A stretch of 43,895 bases of DNA from Pseudomonadota bacterium. GTDB taxonomy: Bacteria; Pseudomonadota; Gammaproteobacteria; JAKAQQ01. Position numbers and translations under genes: made by a program. Below the pieces are notes generated by a model. The model had not been told where the DNA came from. It saw only the letters and a program-made list of their open reading frames with translations, and did no database searches. Positions 5,207 to 19,292 of this stretch are shown here, piece by piece. Position 1 is the stretch's first letter; each line of letters starts with the position of its first letter. The DNA lies in the NCBI GenBank assembly GCA_021798795.1, contig JAJZBR010000006.1, forward strand, positions 1-43,895. The letters are read 5' to 3'.

Positions 5207-6262
5207 TCAGGAGAATCGGATTTTGCTTTCGAGATTGGTCCTCGAATCGGCAAAACCCAACGCTGTTTGCAGGTCGATGATGCCTTCGCGGTACAAGCGG
5301 TGCAAGGCCACATCGAAAGTTTGCATACCTGATTCCGCACTTTGTTCCATGGCTTCCCGTATGCTGTCGAGATCCCCTTTGCGGATCACGTCCGCCATAT
5401 GCGGCGTGTTGAGCAGAATTTCCACAGCGGCAACCAGCTTGGCCTGCAGGTTGGGGATGAGGCGTTGGGCGATAATCGCGCGCAAGTTGACAGAGAGATC
5501 GGTCAGGATCTGCCGTCGGGCATATTCGGGATAAAGATTCAGGATCCGCTCAAGCGTCTGGTGCGCGTTGCTGGTGTGGAGTGTAGCGAGCGTGAGATGA
5601 CCGGTGCCCGCCATTTCGATGGCTGCGGTCATGGTTTCCTGGTCCCGGATTTCGCCGATCAGAATCACATCCGGAGTAGCTCGGAGCGCACTGCGCAGCG
5701 CATCAGCGTAACTGTGAACGTCGTTTCCAATCTCACGCTGGTTGACGATGGATTGACGATTGGTGTACACGTATTCGATCGGGTCCTCGATGGTGAGGAT
5801 ATGGTCAGTATGCTGGGCGTTTCGATAATCGATCATTGCCGCCAAGGTCGTTGATTTCCCCGCACCGGTTGCGCCAACCACGAGAATCAGACCTCGGCGC
5901 AGCTCGGTGAGTTCGGTGAGAAGAGGGGGCAAGGCGAGAGTCGACAGTTCCGGAATTTTTTGGGGGATAAACCGGATGGCCATCGCGACGCGACTGCGTT
6001 CCAGGAACGCATTGATGCGGTAGCGACCGAGATCAGTTACATCCATGGCAAACTCGGCCTGGTGTTTTTCCTCGAATTGATCGACTACCGCTTCGGGCAT
6101 GATCCCCAGAGCGGCCTCGCGAATCATGGGTACATCGAGGATGGTTTTCCCAACGGACAGGATCCGACCCTGTACACGGATCTTGATCGGTGAACCGGTG
6201 GTGAGATAGAGATCGGAGGCTTTTTGTTCCGCCATGAGACGGAGATAAGGTTCGAGATTCAT
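5207..6262 (-). CDS. PilU-like type IV pilus retraction ATPase (second PilU-like copy)
   Basis: 351 aa; VVGATGAGKSTTLA Walker A, TIEDPIEYV, ILIGEIRDQETM, TLHTSNA; lacks the AIRNLIRE motif. Confidence 0.9.
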   Translation of the reverse strand: MNLEPYLRLMAEQKASDLYLTTGSPIKIRVQGRILSVGKTILDVPMIREAALGIMPEAVVDQFEEKHQAEFAMDVTDLGRYRINAFLERSRVAMAIRFIPQKIPELSTLALPPLLTELTELRRGLILVVGATGAGKSTTLAAMIDYRNAQHTDHILTIEDPIEYVYTNRQSIVNQREIGNDVHSYADALRSALRATPDVILIGEIRDQETMTAAIEMAGTGHLTLATLHTSNAHQTLERILNLYPEYARRQILTDLSVNLRAIIAQRLIPNLQAKLVAAVEILLNTPHMADVIRKGDLDSIREAMEQSAESGMQTFDVALHRLYREGIIDLQTALGFADSRTNLESKIRFS

Positions 6263-6313
6263 GCTTCTTTCCCTAAGGCGAGATCTGTCTTGTCCCGAGC
6301 AGCCAAAGGGCGG

Positions 6314-7489
6314 TCATCTCGGGTTGCGCAGCGGTGCGGTGCTTTTCGGTGCACCCTCAGCGAGTTTCAGCCCACCGAGATCGTCATCCTGAGGGCGACT
6401 CGCCCGGTGGCTTTCCAGTTTGATTCGAAGGCGAAGCTCATTCTGGGAATCCGCGTTGCGAATGGCTTCCTCGTAGCTGATCACGCCCCTTTCATAAAGA
6501 TCAAAGATGGACTGGTCAAATGTCTGCATGCCAAGCCCCGTTGATTTAGCCATGAGCTCCTTGAGTTCAGCAACGCGCCCGTTGAAAATGAGATCTGCTA
6601 CAAGAGGCGTATTGATCAGGATTTCCATGGCTGCGACCCGCCCGGATCCAGAGGCTCGTCTGAGTAGACGCTGGGATATCATTGCCTTGAGATTCAAGGA
6701 AAGATCCATGAGTAACTGCTGGCGCCGTGCCAGTGGGTAGAGGTTGATGACTCGGTCCAACGCCTGGTTGGCATTGTTTGCATGGAGTGTACTCAGGCAG
6801 AGATGCCCGGTTTCGGCGAAATCGACCGCGTAAGTCATCGCTTCCGTATCGCGGATCTCACCAATGAGGATGACATCCGGAGCCTGACGCAGCGTGTTTT
6901 TGAGTGCGGATCCCCAAGATTCGGTATCGATACCGAGTTCCCGCTGAGTGACAATGCAGGAGGCATGACTATGAACGTATTCAATGGGATCCTCGATCGT
7001 AACGATGTGATCGTGCGCATGAGTATTATGATGGTGAATCATGGCCGCCAACGTCGTTGATTTGCCCGATCCGGTTGCGCCCACGACGAGCACGAGCCCG
7101 CGCTTGGTCAGCGCAATCGGCTCGAGGACCTGGGGCAGATCCAGTTCACGGATGTTCGGAACCTGGGTATTGATCGTACGAAGCACCGCTCCGAGCCGAC
7201 CCTGTTCGACGAATGCGCTAACCCGGAAACGTCCAATACCCAGGGGGGCAATGGCGAAGTTGACTTCTTTGGATGCGTCGAACTCTCTCGACTGGCGGTC
7301 ATTCAGCAGGGATCGCACAAGGGTTGCCGCCTGCTCCGCCGTAAATGGGCGATCCGAGACCGGTTTGACCTCGCCATCGATTTTCATCGCAGGTGGAAAG
7401 TCAGCCGTGATGAAAAGATCGGATGCGTGGCGCTGCACCATGATCCGAAGAAGGTCTTGGATAAACTTGACAGCTTGATCGCGGTCCAT
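6314..7489 (-). CDS. pilU: PilU-like type IV pilus retraction ATPase
   Basis: ORF 6314..7588, likely start at 7489 (MDRDQAVKFIQDLLRIMVQRHASDLFIT); VVGATGSGKSTTLA; GEIRDTEAM; no AIRNLIRE motif. Confidence 0.9.
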   Translation of the reverse strand: MDRDQAVKFIQDLLRIMVQRHASDLFITADFPPAMKIDGEVKPVSDRPFTAEQAATLVRSLLNDRQSREFDASKEVNFAIAPLGIGRFRVSAFVEQGRLGAVLRTINTQVPNIRELDLPQVLEPIALTKRGLVLVVGATGSGKSTTLAAMIHHHNTHAHDHIVTIEDPIEYVHSHASCIVTQRELGIDTESWGSALKNTLRQAPDVILIGEIRDTEAMTYAVDFAETGHLCLSTLHANNANQALDRVINLYPLARRQQLLMDLSLNLKAMISQRLLRRASGSGRVAAMEILINTPLVADLIFNGRVAELKELMAKSTGLGMQTFDQSIFDLYERGVISYEEAIRNADSQNELRLRIKLESHRASRPQDDDLGGLKLAEGAPKSTAPLRNPR

Positions 7490-7503
7490 GGGATTCCTCT
7501 GCG

Positions 7504-8565
7504 CTATGCGAACAGATCTTTGTTGCTGGCCTTGGCCCGGGCTTGATCGCGGGCGACCAAGCCGCGTTTGACCAGATCGGCGAGACATTGGTCAAGCGTT
7601 TGCATACCATGGGATTGGCCGGTCTGAATGGCAGAATACATTTGAGCGACTTTGTTCTCCCGGATCAAATTACGAATCGCAGGCGTTGCGATCATAATCT
7701 CGAAAGCAGCGATCCGTCCGCCTCCCATGCGTTTCATGAGTGTCTGAGAGATGACCGCGCGCAGCGATTCGGAGAGCATGGTGCGCACCATGTCCTTCTC
7801 GGCGGCAGGAAAGACATCGACGACGCGATCGATGGTTTTGGCTGCTGAGCTCGTATGGAGGGTGGCGAATACCAAGTGCCCCGTCTCGGCTGCTGTGAGT
7901 GCAAGGCGAATGGTTTCGAGATCGCGCATCTCGCCTACCAAGATGACATCCGGGTCTTCACGCAGACCGGCCCGCAACGCTTCCGCAAAACCGAGTGTGT
8001 GCTCATGGACTTCGCGCTGGTTGACGATGCATTTCTTGCTTTCGTGAACAAACTCGATAGGGTCCTCAATCGTGAGGATGTGCGACATCAGGTTTTCATT
8101 AACGTGGTTGACCATGCCTGCGAGGGTGGTCGATTTACCGGAGCCCGTGGGACCCGTGACCAGTATCAATCCGCGTGGCTGCAGTGAGATTTCCTTGAAT
8201 ATCGAGGGAGTCGCCAGATCCTCCAGGGTGAGCACCGTGGACGGAATGGTCCGGAAAACAGCACCGGGCCCGCGTTTCTGGTTGAACGCATTGACCCGGA
8301 AGCGTGCGACCCCGCTGATCTCGAAGGAAAAATCACAATCGAGAAACTCCTCGAATTGTTTGCGTTGTTTATCGTTCATAATGTCATAGATCATGTCGTG
8401 TACTTTTTTACCTTCGAGGGCCGGCAGGTTGATTCGTCGGATATCTCCGTCGACCCGAATCATGGGAGGTTCTCCCGATGACAGATGGAGATCCGAGGCG
8501 TTATTTCGTACGCCAAACTGGAGGAGCTGGGTGATATCCAGGATTTTTACAGCTTCTTCGGCCAT
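7504..8565 (-). CDS. pilT: Type IV pilus twitching motility ATPase PilT
   Basis: Likely start at 8565 (MAEEAVKILDITQLLQFGVRNNASDLHLSSG), preceded by an SD-like AGAGGAG; VTGPTGSGKSTTLAGM; PilT-type AIRNLIRENK motif present. Confidence 0.95.
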   Translation of the reverse strand: MAEEAVKILDITQLLQFGVRNNASDLHLSSGEPPMIRVDGDIRRINLPALEGKKVHDMIYDIMNDKQRKQFEEFLDCDFSFEISGVARFRVNAFNQKRGPGAVFRTIPSTVLTLEDLATPSIFKEISLQPRGLILVTGPTGSGKSTTLAGMVNHVNENLMSHILTIEDPIEFVHESKKCIVNQREVHEHTLGFAEALRAGLREDPDVILVGEMRDLETIRLALTAAETGHLVFATLHTSSAAKTIDRVVDVFPAAEKDMVRTMLSESLRAVISQTLMKRMGGGRIAAFEIMIATPAIRNLIRENKVAQMYSAIQTGQSHGMQTLDQCLADLVKRGLVARDQARAKASNKDLFA

Positions 8566-8612
8566 GTTGTGGGCTCCTCTACGGCTTTCAACCCCCTTAA
8601 AGGTATAGCGAA

Positions 8613-9509
8613 GTGCACCGAACAGCAAGCGATCCCTCCCCGGATAGCCCATCGGCTGGAAAAGAGTCGGGTGCCTCGGACGATTACCGGATCGCGATCC
8701 TTGGCGGGGGGCATCTCGGCCGGGCCTTTGTAGCCGGATTGATCCGGTCCGGAATGGAGGCCTACCGCATACGAATCGGGGAGCCGGATGCCACGAGGCA
8801 GCTGAGTCTCGAAAGGGACTATGGCGTGGTGGCGCTGGCTGATAATCGAGACGTGGTTGAGCAGGCTGATGTGGTTCTGGTGGCCGTTCGTCCGACCGCG
8901 CTGGCTGCTGTTCTGCCCCCTCTCCAGGGGAGTTGGGGAACCCGTCGGCGGCTACTCGTCAGTCTGGCTGCGGGCGCGATGATCACCCACCTGCGGCAAT
9001 GGATACCGGGTTCGGTGACCGTTGCGCGAGCCATGCCGAATCTGGCGGTCGAGCTGGGACAGGGGGTCATTGCGCTCTACATCCCAGACCCGGTTGCGAA
9101 AGTTGACCGGATGCTTCTCGAGGGTCTGTTCGGCCGTTTGGGCAGGCTTTTCTGGCTTCGGGAGGAGAGCCTTCTGAATGTGGTAACCGCACTATCCGGC
9201 AGTGGCCCTGCTTATTTCTTCTACTTTATGGAACAACTTGAAACAGCGGCACATGCTCTTGGCATGGAGCGTGATATGGCACGTGCGCTGATCCTTGGGA
9301 CGGGCGCAGGTAGCATGGCCCTGGCCCAGGAAGCCAAGGGAGCGTTCCAGACCCTGCGCGAACAGGTGACCTCGCCTGGTGGAACGACGGCAGCCGCGCT
9401 CACCCACCTCGCCCAGCCTGACTTTTCAGATTCGATCGTCGCCGCCGTGCGGGCGGCCTATGAACGAACCCGTGATCTTGTAGATCCCCAGTCGGAGACG
9501 AATCCATGA
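8613..9509 (+). CDS. proC: Pyrroline-5-carboxylate reductase
   Basis: 298 aa; AILGGGHLGRAFVAGL, ARAMPNLAVELGQG, ALSGSGPAYFF, VTSPGGTTAAAL. Confidence 0.95.
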   Translation: MHRTASDPSPDSPSAGKESGASDDYRIAILGGGHLGRAFVAGLIRSGMEAYRIRIGEPDATRQLSLERDYGVVALADNRDVVEQADVVLVAVRPTALAAVLPPLQGSWGTRRRLLVSLAAGAMITHLRQWIPGSVTVARAMPNLAVELGQGVIALYIPDPVAKVDRMLLEGLFGRLGRLFWLREESLLNVVTALSGSGPAYFFYFMEQLETAAHALGMERDMARALILGTGAGSMALAQEAKGAFQTLREQVTSPGGTTAAALTHLAQPDFSDSIVAAVRAAYERTRDLVDPQSETNP

Positions 9510-13524: not shown

Positions 13525-13796
13525 ACAGATCGCAGGGTATGAGCGGAGCGATCGGGAACGTTGCGGATTTTGTAACCATCGCAGTGTTTGATGATGTCTT
13601 TAATGCCCGAGTGGTTGCCGGGCGGCTTGAGGTCGAGGGGTTTACCGTCCGCATCAAGGATCAGCATATTGTCCAGATGGATTGGCTCTACACACTGGCA
13701 GTCGGAGGGATCAAGCTTCAGGTCCACTCGGAGGAAGTGTCCCGCGCGCAACGCGTCATTCAGGACGATTATTCTGATTGCCTGCCGTCTATTTGA
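13521..13796 (+). CDS. DUF2007-like putative signal-transducing protein
   Basis: ATGA overlap with tatC; VTIAVFDDVFNARVVAGRLEVEGFTVRIKDQHIVQMDW...GGIKLQVHSEEVSRAQRVI. Confidence 0.75.
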   Translation: MNRSQGMSGAIGNVADFVTIAVFDDVFNARVVAGRLEVEGFTVRIKDQHIVQMDWLYTLAVGGIKLQVHSEEVSRAQRVIQDDYSDCLPSI

Positions 13797-15045
13797 TCAT
13801 GCGCAAGGATTCCTCTTCGAGCACGCTTAACTCCCGTTCCAGGGTTGAAAGATGCGTTTCAAAATCGGATTCAGTCGGGGTTACGACCTGAACGGAACGA
13901 AGTTCCCATTGCGCGTTGGAATCTGGTGGGTTATGAGTCAGTTCCTCCCAGACAGCGTTTTGTGCGGGGATGGTTCCAGACAACTCAGCAGGAGACAGAA
14001 TCCCGAAGCGACGGGGGGACAAACACGCGCAAAACGTGCTGGAAGGAAGCCCAGCCTGCCAATGCCGGATTCGTGTTACGAACTCGGGGTTCGAAAGATC
14101 CAGCCAGGATGGTTCATCTTCCAGGGACAGGTTCAGGACTTCGAACAACGCGAGCTGAATACCGGTAGATCCTTCAAAGCCTGTCCTGAAACGCCAAGAT
14201 CCGTAATCGCGGAAGGCACGGGCGTTGGGCAGTCGGGTTTGGGGTTCCAGCAACCGTTCTGACAGCAGGCGTGTCTCGAGGCGCCGGATGAGATTATGCG
14301 TGTTCCGTGCCAGGCCGTAGCGCTCCATCCGTGCCTGGATCTCCTCAAGGGATGCGGATTTGCTCCAGAAATCGTCCGCACCTGCGGCGAAGGCTCGACG
14401 CCTTTGATCATCATCGTTTCCGCCTGAGACCATGATGATCGGTACCGGACCGGAAGGGAGGGTTTGGGCTCGAATTTTTGGAATCAAAGCATATCCGGTT
14501 TGTGTATCTTCGATGAAGACATCGCAGAGCACCAGACCATAGGCGGATTTCTGCAAGGCGAGCAGCGCTTCGGCCGGTGTAAAAAAGTGGTGCAGGACGA
14601 TTCCCAGTTTTTCAAAGCGGTTTTTCATGTGTTGAGCAGCGACCTGGCTATCGTCAAGATAAAGTACGGGTAACGCTGGCGGCGACCGCAGAACCCCGAT
14701 CCGCTCTGCCAATGCCGTACTGATACGGTGCCGATCCTGGCGATCCACAATCTCGTAACGTGGATGCTGCATGAGGGCCATTCCCCAGCTGTCCGGATTC
14801 GAGGTCACAATGAGTGGCCAATACACGGCGTGCAAAGGCGACTGCTGGAGCAGTTCCGCGCACGTGATTCCATCCATGTCCGACAATGTGAAGGCGATGA
14901 GTGCCGAATCGCAACGGACGCTACGTGCCAGAGACAGTGCTTCCTGGCCGTTGGCTGCGAGGATCGGCACCTGACCCAGTGTACGGATGATCTTCTCCCA
15001 GTTGAGCTGATACAACCGCGATCCCTCGACGACCAGTATGTTCAT
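13789..15045 (-). CDS. REC(pseudo)-REC-degenerate GGDEF-like regulator
   Basis: 418 aa; REC1 NILVVEGSR...LIAFTLSDMDG lacks the acceptor Asp; REC2 VLYLDDSQ...LVLCDVFIED...VSGG...SK appears intact; C-terminal EPQTRLPNARAFRDY...CACLSPRRFGILSP aligns by eye with GGDEF-domain landmarks but has SPRRF at the signature. Confidence 0.75.
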   Translation of the reverse strand: MNILVVEGSRLYQLNWEKIIRTLGQVPILAANGQEALSLARSVRCDSALIAFTLSDMDGITCAELLQQSPLHAVYWPLIVTSNPDSWGMALMQHPRYEIVDRQDRHRISTALAERIGVLRSPPALPVLYLDDSQVAAQHMKNRFEKLGIVLHHFFTPAEALLALQKSAYGLVLCDVFIEDTQTGYALIPKIRAQTLPSGPVPIIMVSGGNDDDQRRRAFAAGADDFWSKSASLEEIQARMERYGLARNTHNLIRRLETRLLSERLLEPQTRLPNARAFRDYGSWRFRTGFEGSTGIQLALFEVLNLSLEDEPSWLDLSNPEFVTRIRHWQAGLPSSTFCACLSPRRFGILSPAELSGTIPAQNAVWEELTHNPPDSNAQWELRSVQVVTPTESDFETHLSTLERELSVLEEESLRMIK

Positions 15046-16835
15046 CGGCTGCTTGCCGCAAGAGCGTGAGTTTGGGGAAGTGCGCGAGGGAGCCGGTCAA
15101 CCGGATAGAGAGAGGGTGAGATGGGATCCTGAAACAAGTAACGATAGAAAAAATCGAGGCGTGCCGATGGATTCCCGGAAAATCCCGAGTGCATGATCCG
15201 GACAAGGAAGCGCCGCGCCAGATGTGGATGATGTCGAAGGAGTGTTCGAGCCAGTGTTTCAAGGGCACCCTGGGGACGGATGTGCAACGGCTTGAAGATG
15301 GCGCTGAAGTAACCCAGGCGATAGAGATTCAAGGGACTTTGAATATCAAGAAGGAGGTAAATGAGGCGAGCGAGCGGCTGGCGGATCGGGACAAATACCG
15401 AGCCTGCTGGGTAGACAAAATAGCGGATTTCCGGTTTTGCATTGAATGAGTCGATATCCCGATCAGGGCCTTGTTTCGATCGTCCCCATTGGATATGGCT
15501 CAGCCGGTCAGTTTGGACCTCAAGCTTGAGCGGTGCCAAAAGCCGCTTGGTTTGGATACCATGCATCCGCAGTATGGAAATGACTTGCGGAAATCCAGCA
15601 GGGATCATGTATCCCGTGAGCTCCGGCATGGGATCGCGGCCCGAGAGGCGACTGTAACGTGGCACGAGGTAGTTGCGTGGCAGGTTCCATTCATAGCGAG
15701 TCCATACCGTACCCGATATCGGGCTCAGCGTTTCGGTATAAGCATAAGTTCTCAGCAAAAATCCGGCTGGGGAGCGTTCAAGTTTCGTGTAGATGGGGAA
15801 ACGCTTCCTGAATGCTCCATAATGAAATCGGATTTCGGTTGCGATGTGGTGCTCTGCCCGCAGCAGTAAAGTTCCCTTCCGAGCTAACAGCGTGATCCAG
15901 TTTGAAATCATACGGGTCATGAGGAGGCTTTTATGATGGTCCGGGTTGCGGTCATTGCAGACCAGGTGAAATGCCGGAACATTTGCGAAAGCGCTGTAGC
16001 CGAGGATGTGCCGAGGTGAAGCTGAAAGGGTCTGAACACCCCAGGCTGGATTTTCCGGATTGCGCGTCTGCATCCACGTGCCCACTGCCAAATCAGCATG
16101 GCCCCAAATGGCCTGCGCCTCGTTTGTGAGTTGCTTGGCGAGTTGTCCGAGCTCGGTCGGCAAGAGAGCGGTTGGAGTGCCCCCGAACAAAAATCCGTCA
16201 CGCCACGCGGCTTTGCGACTGATCGTAATTTCTGTGACCAGATCAGGGTGCCAGCGGACGAAAAGCTTGAGCCAGGCCTGTGTCGTCGGGGTTTGCGCCA
16301 AAAGCAGATTCTGTGCATAGACGGCTGATGGGTTGGGTAAATCATTGGGCCAATGGAAGATTGCACGGGTTTGCGCCTGCGGGCGATAGCCGCGTCCCAG
16401 GAAAAAAACCAAAAGCACATGTTGCATCAGAGCGGGTTCTGTTGACCATTGCTGGATGAGGTGAACGGCGAAATCGCGGACGGCCTGACCGGAATCATCG
16501 AGAGCGGGAGTCAGCAAGATAACCAGTCTTGATTCCCCTCCCGCTTCCCTGGTGTGCAAAGGATTCCCGACAATGAGGGCGAAAAGCGGGTGATCGGTGC
16601 GTGTTTTCCCGATCAACTTGAGATGCAGCCAAGGCTTATGCTCATGTTTGAGGAACAGAGCGAGTGGCGAAGACGCTGAAGCGGTGCGTGTGACATCTTG
16701 GGGTGCGTGAGGGGCATCGGCTTGGACCGGAGCTACGAGCAGAAGAGCCAGACCCAGGCCAGCTGTCAGAAAACACCAAAGTCCCTGGCGTGGGGTTCGA
16801 TTTCGAGCATCAGCCGACAGCAACGAGCGCGTCAT
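15042..16835 (-). CDS. M14 carboxypeptidase-fold exported protein lacking recognisable zinc ligands (predicted pseudoenzyme)
   Basis: 597 aa; signal-like N-terminus; QNLLLAQTPTTQAWLKLFVRWHPDL, NLPRNYLVP, VISILRMHGI, YPAGSVFVPIRQPLARLIYLLLD, LYRLGYFSAIFKP landmarks; ATGA overlap with the downstream gene. Confidence 0.65.
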   Translation of the reverse strand: MTRSLLSADARNRTPRQGLWCFLTAGLGLALLLVAPVQADAPHAPQDVTRTASASSPLALFLKHEHKPWLHLKLIGKTRTDHPLFALIVGNPLHTREAGGESRLVILLTPALDDSGQAVRDFAVHLIQQWSTEPALMQHVLLVFFLGRGYRPQAQTRAIFHWPNDLPNPSAVYAQNLLLAQTPTTQAWLKLFVRWHPDLVTEITISRKAAWRDGFLFGGTPTALLPTELGQLAKQLTNEAQAIWGHADLAVGTWMQTRNPENPAWGVQTLSASPRHILGYSAFANVPAFHLVCNDRNPDHHKSLLMTRMISNWITLLARKGTLLLRAEHHIATEIRFHYGAFRKRFPIYTKLERSPAGFLLRTYAYTETLSPISGTVWTRYEWNLPRNYLVPRYSRLSGRDPMPELTGYMIPAGFPQVISILRMHGIQTKRLLAPLKLEVQTDRLSHIQWGRSKQGPDRDIDSFNAKPEIRYFVYPAGSVFVPIRQPLARLIYLLLDIQSPLNLYRLGYFSAIFKPLHIRPQGALETLARTLLRHHPHLARRFLVRIMHSGFSGNPSARLDFFYRYLFQDPISPSLYPVDRLPRALPQTHALAASSR

Positions 16836-17025: not shown

Positions 17026-17607
17026 TCAGGGGCGTGGGACGAAGTAGCGGCGGCCATGATATTTGACCAAAAGTCCGTCGCTTTGGATTGCCAGCAGGCG
17101 GGCCCCGCCTGGGAGGTGGCTACCGGTACGATAAAGATGCATGTTAATGACTACATACCGGTTGATACGTTGCGGGGTCCAACTGAAAACCTGGATCTGC
17201 CAGCCCACTTGGTCAGGCAGATTGCGGTTTGCGGTTACGGGTGGACTCGTGTGCCGGGTTTCCAGAGAGACGGGGGGGTGCGGTAAGGCTACGGATAGGG
17301 AGGATCTCGATTTTGCAGCAGGGCCCGGCATTCGTGTTACCGGGTGATGGAGAGCAGGTCGCATCGGTTGTACGGAGTCAGATCGGGGCACGCGTGCTGA
17401 GCGGGCTAGCGGCTTTTCATGGGCCAGGAAATAAACGCCCAGTAGTGCCACAATGACCCCCAGAATCAGCCCGGCTCCGATCGCGGCAGCCACTTTATAA
17501 TGGGCACCCTTTGCAGGGTCGAGATCCGGTCCGAGCATCGTTGGTCCGTTTCCTTGATGGATCCGGTCCATTTCAGCTTTTCGCAATGCATCAAGGATAA
17601 TCGACAC
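17026..17607 (-). CDS. gspB: General secretion pathway protein B-like
   Basis: 193 aa; MSIILDALRKAEMDR N-terminal motif, one TM, C-terminal RYVVINMHLYRTG...LPGGARLLAIQSDGLLVKYHGRRYFVP. Confidence 0.8.
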   Translation of the reverse strand: MSIILDALRKAEMDRIHQGNGPTMLGPDLDPAKGAHYKVAAAIGAGLILGVIVALLGVYFLAHEKPLARSARVPRSDSVQPMRPALHHPVTRMPGPAAKSRSSLSVALPHPPVSLETRHTSPPVTANRNLPDQVGWQIQVFSWTPQRINRYVVINMHLYRTGSHLPGGARLLAIQSDGLLVKYHGRRYFVPRP

Positions 17608-17616
17608 GCGAGTTTC

Positions 17617-18642
17617 TCAATGGCTGGTCCGGAGTGAGAGAGGTGGGCCTTGGAAGCGGATTTTCCCGGACCGTCCATATTTGATCAGCATGGAAATAGG
17701 GGCCCGATCCATCGGTTGGCCCCGCTGCAGGGTCGTACTGCCGCCAGCCAGGATCAACAAGAAAATCAACAGATTTGCGCGGCTGAATGCCCGGCGGATC
17801 CAACTGATACCTGGTTTTGAGTGCCCTCCCACTTCCTGAGCCGCTTGTCTGGCCAAAGGGTAGGTCACCAGTCTCCTTCTTTTCACAAAAGCCCCGAGCA
17901 AGGCACGGTCGCAGATGATGTTGATGGACCGGGGTAGACCGTGTGAGTCGCGATGGACTGCGCGAATAGCGGCGGGTGTGAACAAGGGAGTTGATAGCCC
18001 TGCAATCCGCAGGCGGTGGTGGATGTAGTCCCGCGTCTCAGTGGGGCGGAGTGGACCGAGTCGGAAACGGGCAGTGATTCGATTCCGCAAGGGCAGCAGT
18101 TCCGGTCGTTCAAGGAGTACATCGAGTTCCGGTTGGCCCACGAGAATGATCTGCATGAGTTTGGTGGTGCGGGTTTCGAGGTTCGTAAGCAGGCGTATTT
18201 GTTCGAGGGTTTCAACTGGGAGGGCTTGGGCCTCGTCCACGATCAGTATGACTCGGCGTCCCTGGGCGTAGATCTCAAGCAAGCGATCATTTATGCAGGT
18301 GATCAATGACGGGAGATCGGCACGGTGCATGGCGCGCGACGCGTCGGGTTGAATTTCCTGTAACAGGTTACGAATGAAAGCTTTGGGTGTCTGTTTCGGG
18401 TTGAAAATGAGCGCAATCTCGAAATCCGCTGGTGGATGATCCAGCAGTCGACGGACGAGGGTTGTCTTCCCGGTTCCGACGGGTCCTGACAACTCGATGA
18501 ATCCGCCCGGCTGGGTGACCCCGTATAAAAGGTGCGCCAACCCTTCCTGATGCAAAGGGCTCAAAAACAGGAAACGGGGATCCGGTGCCATGCTAAATGG
18601 ATCTTCCCGCAAGCCAAAATAGGGTGTGTAGAGCGTGACCAC
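17617..18642 (-). CDS. gspA: GspA/ExeA-like AAA ATPase
   Basis: 341 aa; YFGLREDPFSMAPDPRFLFLSPLHQEGLAHLLYGV, SGPVGTGKTTLVR Walker A, VILIVDEAQALP Walker B, C-terminal TM. Confidence 0.85.
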   Translation of the reverse strand: MVTLYTPYFGLREDPFSMAPDPRFLFLSPLHQEGLAHLLYGVTQPGGFIELSGPVGTGKTTLVRRLLDHPPADFEIALIFNPKQTPKAFIRNLLQEIQPDASRAMHRADLPSLITCINDRLLEIYAQGRRVILIVDEAQALPVETLEQIRLLTNLETRTTKLMQIILVGQPELDVLLERPELLPLRNRITARFRLGPLRPTETRDYIHHRLRIAGLSTPLFTPAAIRAVHRDSHGLPRSINIICDRALLGAFVKRRRLVTYPLARQAAQEVGGHSKPGISWIRRAFSRANLLIFLLILAGGSTTLQRGQPMDRAPISMLIKYGRSGKIRFQGPPLSLRTSH

Positions 18643-18695: not shown

Positions 18696-19292
18696 CTAGC
18701 GTGGCGGGAAATGTTGCAGGATGTGACGAACCAGATGGTATACGGCACGCGTCGAAAAATTGCTGCGCGTGACGATCTGGGATTCCCAGCCGCGCCAGAT
18801 CAAATGACGATTTTTGGCACTGATGATGTCGAGTACGAGATCAGCCTTGCGGTACGTATAGGAGTTTCCATAACCGTATCCGAATCCGTAGCCAAAGCCA
18901 TATCCTCCCTCCATCATTGCGCTTCCCGGAAAGAAATAATCGTCATAGTAAGGGAACCCAAACCCGAAACCGGGAAAGAAAGGCGGATTGTTTACGAACT
19001 CACGATGACTGATGATGTGGTAAGTAATCAGAAATTGTGCTTGTGCCGGTTGCTTGCGGTACGAGAACCCCCTATTTTCGAGTACTGCTATCGCTGCACG
19101 TTTGACCCGTTGCGTTATGATCCCGCTATTGACAATCGGGTTTTTGAGCAGCTGTTTGCCCGGCTTGAGCCAAGCAAAGCGGTTCAAGTTGGAAAAGTTC
19201 GCGTTTCGCTCGATTTCTACCCCGACGGTAGACGCACAGCCGGTCAAAATCACAATAAGGGTCAGTGCGGAAAACAGACGAATTGGCTTCAT
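18696..19292 (-). CDS. DUF4136-like lipoprotein
   Basis: 198 aa; lipobox LTGCAS; FAWLKPG...VKRAAIAVLENRGFSYRKQPAQAQFLITYHI; Gly/Tyr/Phe-rich insert; DIISAKNRHLIWRGW. Confidence 0.8.
   Translation of the reverse strand: MKPIRLFSALTLIVILTGCASTVGVEIERNANFSNLNRFAWLKPGKQLLKNPIVNSGIITQRVKRAAIAVLENRGFSYRKQPAQAQFLITYHIISHREFVNNPPFFPGFGFGFPYYDDYFFPGSAMMEGGYGFGYGFGYGYGNSYTYRKADLVLDIISAKNRHLIWRGWESQIVTRSNFSTRAVYHLVRHILQHFPPR

Follow-up and report, generated by a model that had tools for sequence, protein, structure and literature searches.

A conserved gene pair for an M14 pseudo-carboxypeptidase and a GGDEF-like regulator beside gspAB, possibly an accessory of type II secretion

In the window, by which we mean the whole stretch of 43,895 nucleotides that was analysed, the genes of an M14 pseudo-carboxypeptidase (pseudo-M14) and of a response regulator belong to a larger conserved neighbourhood, which comprises a DUF4136 lipoprotein gene, gspA, gspB, the pseudo-M14 gene and the regulator gene (Table 1). 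Both enzymes are catalytically dead, as judged by their residues, in every genome that carries the pair. We propose, with a probability of about 0.42, that the pair is a conserved double-pseudoenzyme accessory of the GspAB locus of type II secretion (T2SS); its role in T2SS, which we infer, is given about the same probability. An earlier note on this DNA had described an unusual two-gene module. The conserved pairing and the degeneration of both members hold, and its context is likely to be T2SS assembly, not pili or surface behaviour. In the literature that we searched, we found no description of a bacterial M14 pseudopeptidase or of a link between GspAB and a signalling protein of the c-di-GMP type.

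Table 1. Positions of the genes and protein regions of the conserved neighbourhood in the window
Feature	Position	Strand	Basis
DUF4136 lipoprotein gene, first of the conserved neighbourhood	18696..19292	-	domain match
gspA/exeA-like AAA ATPase gene, shortened, without C39-like or peptidoglycan-binding region	17617..18642	-	domain match and ortholog comparison
gspB-like gene (putative T2SSB domain)	17026..17607	-	28.1 bits against a cut-off of 28.4
M14 pseudo-carboxypeptidase gene, product 597 aa, probably exported	15042..16835	-	homology, alignment, Foldseek, selection
Predicted Sec signal peptide, residues 1-39 (basic start, hydrophobic 19-31, VQA|D)	16719..16835	-	read from sequence
Eroded M14 domain, residues about 58-340; zinc ligands, catalytic Glu and NVDGHER loop lost	15816..16664	-	alignment and profile
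C-terminal domain, residues 362-581, common to active M14 homologs	15093..15752	-	profile E=2.8e-34
ATGA stop/start overlap of pseudo-M14 and regulator genes	15042..15045	-	read from sequence
Response regulator gene, product 418 aa; pseudo-REC1, canonical REC2, probable degenerate GGDEF	13789..15045	-	domains and fold
REC1 pseudo-receiver, phospho-acceptor Asp to Ala	14710..15045	-	alignment
REC2, intact DD / D175 / S207 / K229 phosphorylation set	14326..14667	-	Pfam and alignment
Probable degenerate GGDEF, residues about 266-393; without GG[DE]EF, metal-binding Asp, RxxD I-site	13867..14250	-	fold and alignment

The two reading frames of the pair (418 and 597 aa) lie on the minus strand, at the places where they had been reported. 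TCAT on the plus strand at 15042-15045 reads ATGA on the coding strand, so that the pseudo-M14 gene, ending in TGA, overlaps by 4 nt with the regulator gene, which starts with ATG. This overlap, from which translational coupling had been proposed, is present in the window but is not fixed among carriers, whose spacings are -4, +6, +6, -4 and +59 nt. Domain matches agree that gspB and gspA lie upstream on the same strand, and the gap between gspB and the pseudo-M14 gene is 190 nt. Downstream of the regulator, tatC and a DUF2007-like gene have the opposite orientation. The surroundings of the pair yielded no kinase gene, and scans for promoters and terminators gave results at chance level. The pilT/pilU block noticed elsewhere in the window was found at 5207-8652 on the minus strand; it consists of three tandem PilT/PilU-type ATPase genes (382, 424 and 351 aa) with 93-94% identity in G002, and the third copy is unusual. 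Nothing connects this block with the pair and it is outside the conserved five-gene unit; the surface-behaviour role that had been suggested partly from the block has no support.

The pair is carried by G000, G001, G002 and G006, which belong to the window's family, and by G155, a member of another order that is publicly listed as a Gammaproteobacteria MAG (contig JALUYA010000038.1). In all five carriers the two genes have identical order and strand and lie within 60 nt of each other. Because the pair recurs in four genomes besides the window's own, it is not a chance arrangement. The earlier note had allowed that adjacency might not be conserved, and this was not seen: the two genes adjoin in 5/5 genomes with a pseudo-M14 gene. 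G002 and G006 have the full order DUF4136-gspA-gspB-pseudo-M14-regulator, and G001 has it from gspA to the regulator, its lipoprotein gene having been left out of the profile check. G155 has the five genes in the window's order, with an opposite-strand TonB-like gene inserted between gspB and the M14-like gene; fadE is syntenic there too. Since this divergent gene parts gspB from the pair, the pair is probably its own transcription unit in G155. The inserted gene encodes a two-domain protein (L027, 7677-8567). In G048, from a third lineage, DUF4136-gspA-gspB is followed about 5 kb downstream by an intact REC-REC-GGDEF gene (L019, 1876-10441), and no M14 gene was found in this genome.

Among 369 sampled genomes of the class, M14 homologs of this type occur in five. 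Three of these genomes (G000, G002 and G155) carry dead copies, all of them beside the regulator; the active copies of the other two are not. Within the family, matches to the M14 protein, the regulator and full gspB coincide in four genomes. The informative absences are G003 and G005, in which a GspK match is present, neither a copy of the pair nor of the gspA-gspB unit was found, and the tatC neighbourhood differs. Absence from G004, G007 and G008 was dropped as evidence of loss, since tatC is missing too and the region is perhaps absent from these assemblies. An alignment-based pattern scan of genome contigs gave six loci, and a single-protein pattern scan of the same contigs gave nothing. 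Recurrence in two distant bacterial groups suggests that the pair has a conserved structural or regulatory role.

The 597-aa protein belongs to M14 by homology and fold. Because direct searches against Pfam, NCBIfam and PDB sequences gave no useful match, this link is made through relatives. In a whole-protein search of related genomes, G001, G002 and G006 yielded orthologs, and G020 a distant homolog that is itself an ordinary M14 enzyme (Pfam M14 E=2.8e-23); more homologs came from a phylum-wide sample. The window's protein is recognised by a profile built from the active homologs alone, with a strong match over its C-terminal domain (2.8e-34) and a weak one over its M14 domain (9e-8). When the M14 halves were compared by hhalign, P was 98.2 and E was 5e-14. 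Carboxypeptidases were also the top Foldseek matches of the structure model, which are taken as support only because the model is poor (pLDDT 53). No Pfam-recognisable M14 protein was found in nine genomes of the window's family.

In the alignment, the zinc ligands (H69, E72 and H196 in CPA numbering) are missing, with PALDDSG in place of HAGE and VTEI in place of VDLH, and the catalytic Glu270 is missing too, with FHLVCND in place of LVETHSW. All five clustered copies lack the zinc ligands and the catalytic Glu, and the NVDGHER loop is also gone in the four copies of the window's family; the M14 domain carries deletions. In 20/20 active homologs aligned over the active site, the catalytic Glu, the second His and the motifs HxGE and NLNRD are all intact; the fragmentary homolog L120 was left out of this count. 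The five dead copies form a single branch with support of 100/99, and branches are long. A hydrophobic 19-mer begins at residue 19, and the N-termini in G006 and G155 are similarly hydrophobic; family knowledge suggests that the protein is exported. The earlier reading of an exported non-catalytic peptidase fold thus agrees with a predicted signal peptide, a catalytic set that is replaced or deleted, and M14 homology by way of relatives. The gene is held under purifying selection: dN/dS within the genus is about 0.18 (NG86), a rough figure as dS is above 1 and near saturation. No known substrate was found for the active M14 homologs, and no gspA, gspB, DUF4136 or close regulator relative was found in their flanks. 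In a Bacteroidetes MAG (L034, 7984-8793), a receiver-type protein with 22% identity is encoded on the other strand about 0.5 kb from a catalytic M14 homolog.

Pfam finds two Response_reg domains in the regulator, and the receiver set (acidic pair, Asp, Ser/Thr and Lys) is complete in REC2 only. By analogy with its family, REC2 is presumably phosphorylated at Asp175. The loss of the REC1 Asp is probably ancestral, since nearly all relatives of the regulator also lack it. Regulators of related type occur in 84/369 sampled genomes of the class, and their third part is GGDEF in those aligned; class-wide (e.g. L125-L152), the aligned regulators almost always lack the REC1 Asp and keep that of REC2, an arrangement opposite to that of PleD. 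In the tree of regulators, where branches are long, G155 is not grouped with the window's family. A scan of viral contigs for the regulator gave unrelated receiver domains only. No transcription-factor output domain was found in the regulator by domain search or in the predicted fold. Its dN/dS is 0.07-0.10 (NG86; dS near saturation).

The third domain of the regulator is probably a degenerate GGDEF domain, a reading that relies on its fold, a retained start motif and the G155 ortholog, with no significant match by sequence (hhalign P=3%, no Pfam hit). Its predicted topology is beta-alpha-beta-beta-alpha-beta-alpha, as in GGDEF, and the best Foldseek match of the full-length model is PleD (E=1e-17), for a model whose alignment input contained GGDEF relatives. 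A DPxTxLPN-like start is retained, as EPQTRLPN in the window and DPESGLPN in G006. CLSPRRF is aligned with the RVGGEEF signature and LFEVLNLS with VIDLDHFK, so that signature and metal Asp are lost. The G155 ortholog still gives a Pfam GGDEF match of 1.2e-11, with GAEEF and a kept RLGD I-site, and its metal Asp is already gone. The degenerate GGDEF regulator of the earlier note is in line with this topology, the PleD match, the bridging ortholog and the loss of signature, metal Asp and I-site.

The GspA of the window's family (309-341 aa) ends soon after its presumed membrane segment; it keeps the AAA domain but not the C39-like and peptidoglycan-binding region. In G155 and G048, GspA is longer (507-537 aa) and includes PG_binding_1; in G048 it is complete, having both the C39-like and the peptidoglycan-binding domains. 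The T2SSB score of the window's gspB lies just under the cut-off (Table 1); that of the G155 ortholog is 47.5 bits and that of the G048 ortholog is clearly above the cut-off. GspK, GspL and GspN are encoded on another contig of the window's genome. A second ExeA-like ATPase (L100, about 7853-9376 on contig C96 of G000) is apparently part of an MSHA-type pilus cluster; this second type is present in 8/9 family genomes and absent from G001 (73% complete). GspAB has been implicated in inserting the secretin through peptidoglycan, and the parts that anchor to peptidoglycan differ among bacteria (PMC9239104, PMC4098917); ExeAB is required and ExeB contacts ExeD (PMC4098917).

According to our reading of the pair as an accessory of GspAB, phosphorylation of Asp175 would switch the regulator through REC2, and the regulator might then bind a partner in the cytoplasm, for which the GspA ATPase is the most plausible candidate; acting on GspA without cyclase activity, it could tune secretin assembly. 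In the periplasm, the pseudopeptidase may bind peptidoglycan, GspB or the secretin, or act as a scaffold for them; of these, binding to peptidoglycan is a guess. Because it adjoins a GspA without the peptidase-like and wall-binding region, the pseudopeptidase is a reasonable candidate for a substitute, and in the window's family it might compensate for the C39-like and peptidoglycan-binding region lost from GspA. G155 has both a pseudo-M14 protein and the peptidoglycan-binding domain of GspA, hence the pair cannot have begun as a simple replacement; substitution would have followed at a later stage and would not explain why the two genes were first paired. Taken as one module of two-sided control on GspAB, in which the dead cyclase, switched by phosphorylation, acts on the ATPase in the cytoplasm and the dead carboxypeptidase on the peptidoglycan side, the latter replacing the GspA region in one family, the scheme is rather unlikely to be right in full.

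The pair may instead be a two-gene signalling unit for another envelope process, with the exported pseudopeptidase as effector or sensor partner of the regulator and nearness to gspAB as inherited synteny. The syntenic fadE in G155 fits this, as the whole region is then perhaps conserved by descent, and so do the TonB-like gene, which sets the pair apart there, and the close relatives of the regulator that lie far from gspA in many genomes. However, in the third lineage, G048, the regulator is within 5 kb of DUF4136-gspA-gspB, and the pair and gspB co-occur in family genomes; we regard this explanation as possible but doubtful. It is improbable that the pseudo-M14 protein is a T2SS cargo or surface protein whose supply the regulator merely adjusts. 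A cargo would have a signal peptide, which is predicted, and a secretion system, whose genes are in the genome, and tight coupling of both genes would match their levels, but an output domain of the transcription-factor kind was not found in the regulator, and a cargo gene is seldom fixed next to gspAB across orders.

Loss of the canonical residues is compatible with a remodelled M14 fold that retains some other catalytic activity, and G155 has Asp..Asp at the former HxxE position; across the five copies, however, the alignment shows no conserved alternative set of His, Asp, Glu or Cys where the active site used to be, and we regard such an activity as very improbable. That both genes are decaying relics could be argued from the lost catalytic residues of both enzymes and the deletions in the M14 domain, but it is disfavoured and hardly credible: in five genomes both frames stay open over about 600 and 420 codons, dN/dS is low in both genes, and the receiver residues and the C-terminal domain are strongly conserved.

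If the pair acts on GspAB, phospho-signalling would be linked to the step at which the secretin crosses the cell wall, and the locus would offer a natural case of a secretion machine whose wall anchoring was rebuilt from different parts. G048 has an intact cyclase and no M14 gene, G155 has a dead cyclase and a dead M14 protein with the wall-binding domain of GspA kept, and in the window's family both are dead and GspA is truncated. These look like successive states, whose temporal order we infer, and the three-lineage series makes the idea testable through comparison. The arrangement at L019 of G048 (intact REC-REC-GGDEF, no M14) is a possible ancestral state.

Active M14 metallocarboxypeptidases (G020, G372) likewise have an M14 domain and a conserved long C-terminal domain, and such homologs are annotated just as 'M14 family metallopeptidase', for example in Croceibacterium and Sphingomonas plasmid records. 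The window's protein differs from them by its lack of zinc ligands and catalytic Glu and by its fixed gspAB neighbourhood, outside of which the active copies are found. AEBP1/ACLP, CPXM1/2, CPD domain III and Ecm14 have an M14 fold without catalysis, probably for binding; these reviewed pseudopeptidases come from animals and yeast and for the most part retain a partial zinc set (PMC11266112). Unlike them, the protein of the window is bacterial, has lost the entire set and has a regulator partner. PleD-type REC-REC-GGDEF proteins have the same three-domain order as the window's regulator, and 3luf, DgcR and WspR are looser matches. PleD carries the phosphorylation set in REC1 and has REC2 as pseudo-receiver; the window's regulator has the reverse arrangement, and the catalytic, metal and I-site residues of its GGDEF part are gone. 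As in the GspA-GspB (ExeAB) of known T2SS, the window has a gene for an AAA_22 ATPase and, after it, one for a putative T2SSB-domain protein, but the C39-like and peptidoglycan-binding region is missing from its GspA. A short GspA is known from Alteromonas, where it is paired with a longer GspB (PMC9239104), whereas in the window GspB is short as well as GspA.
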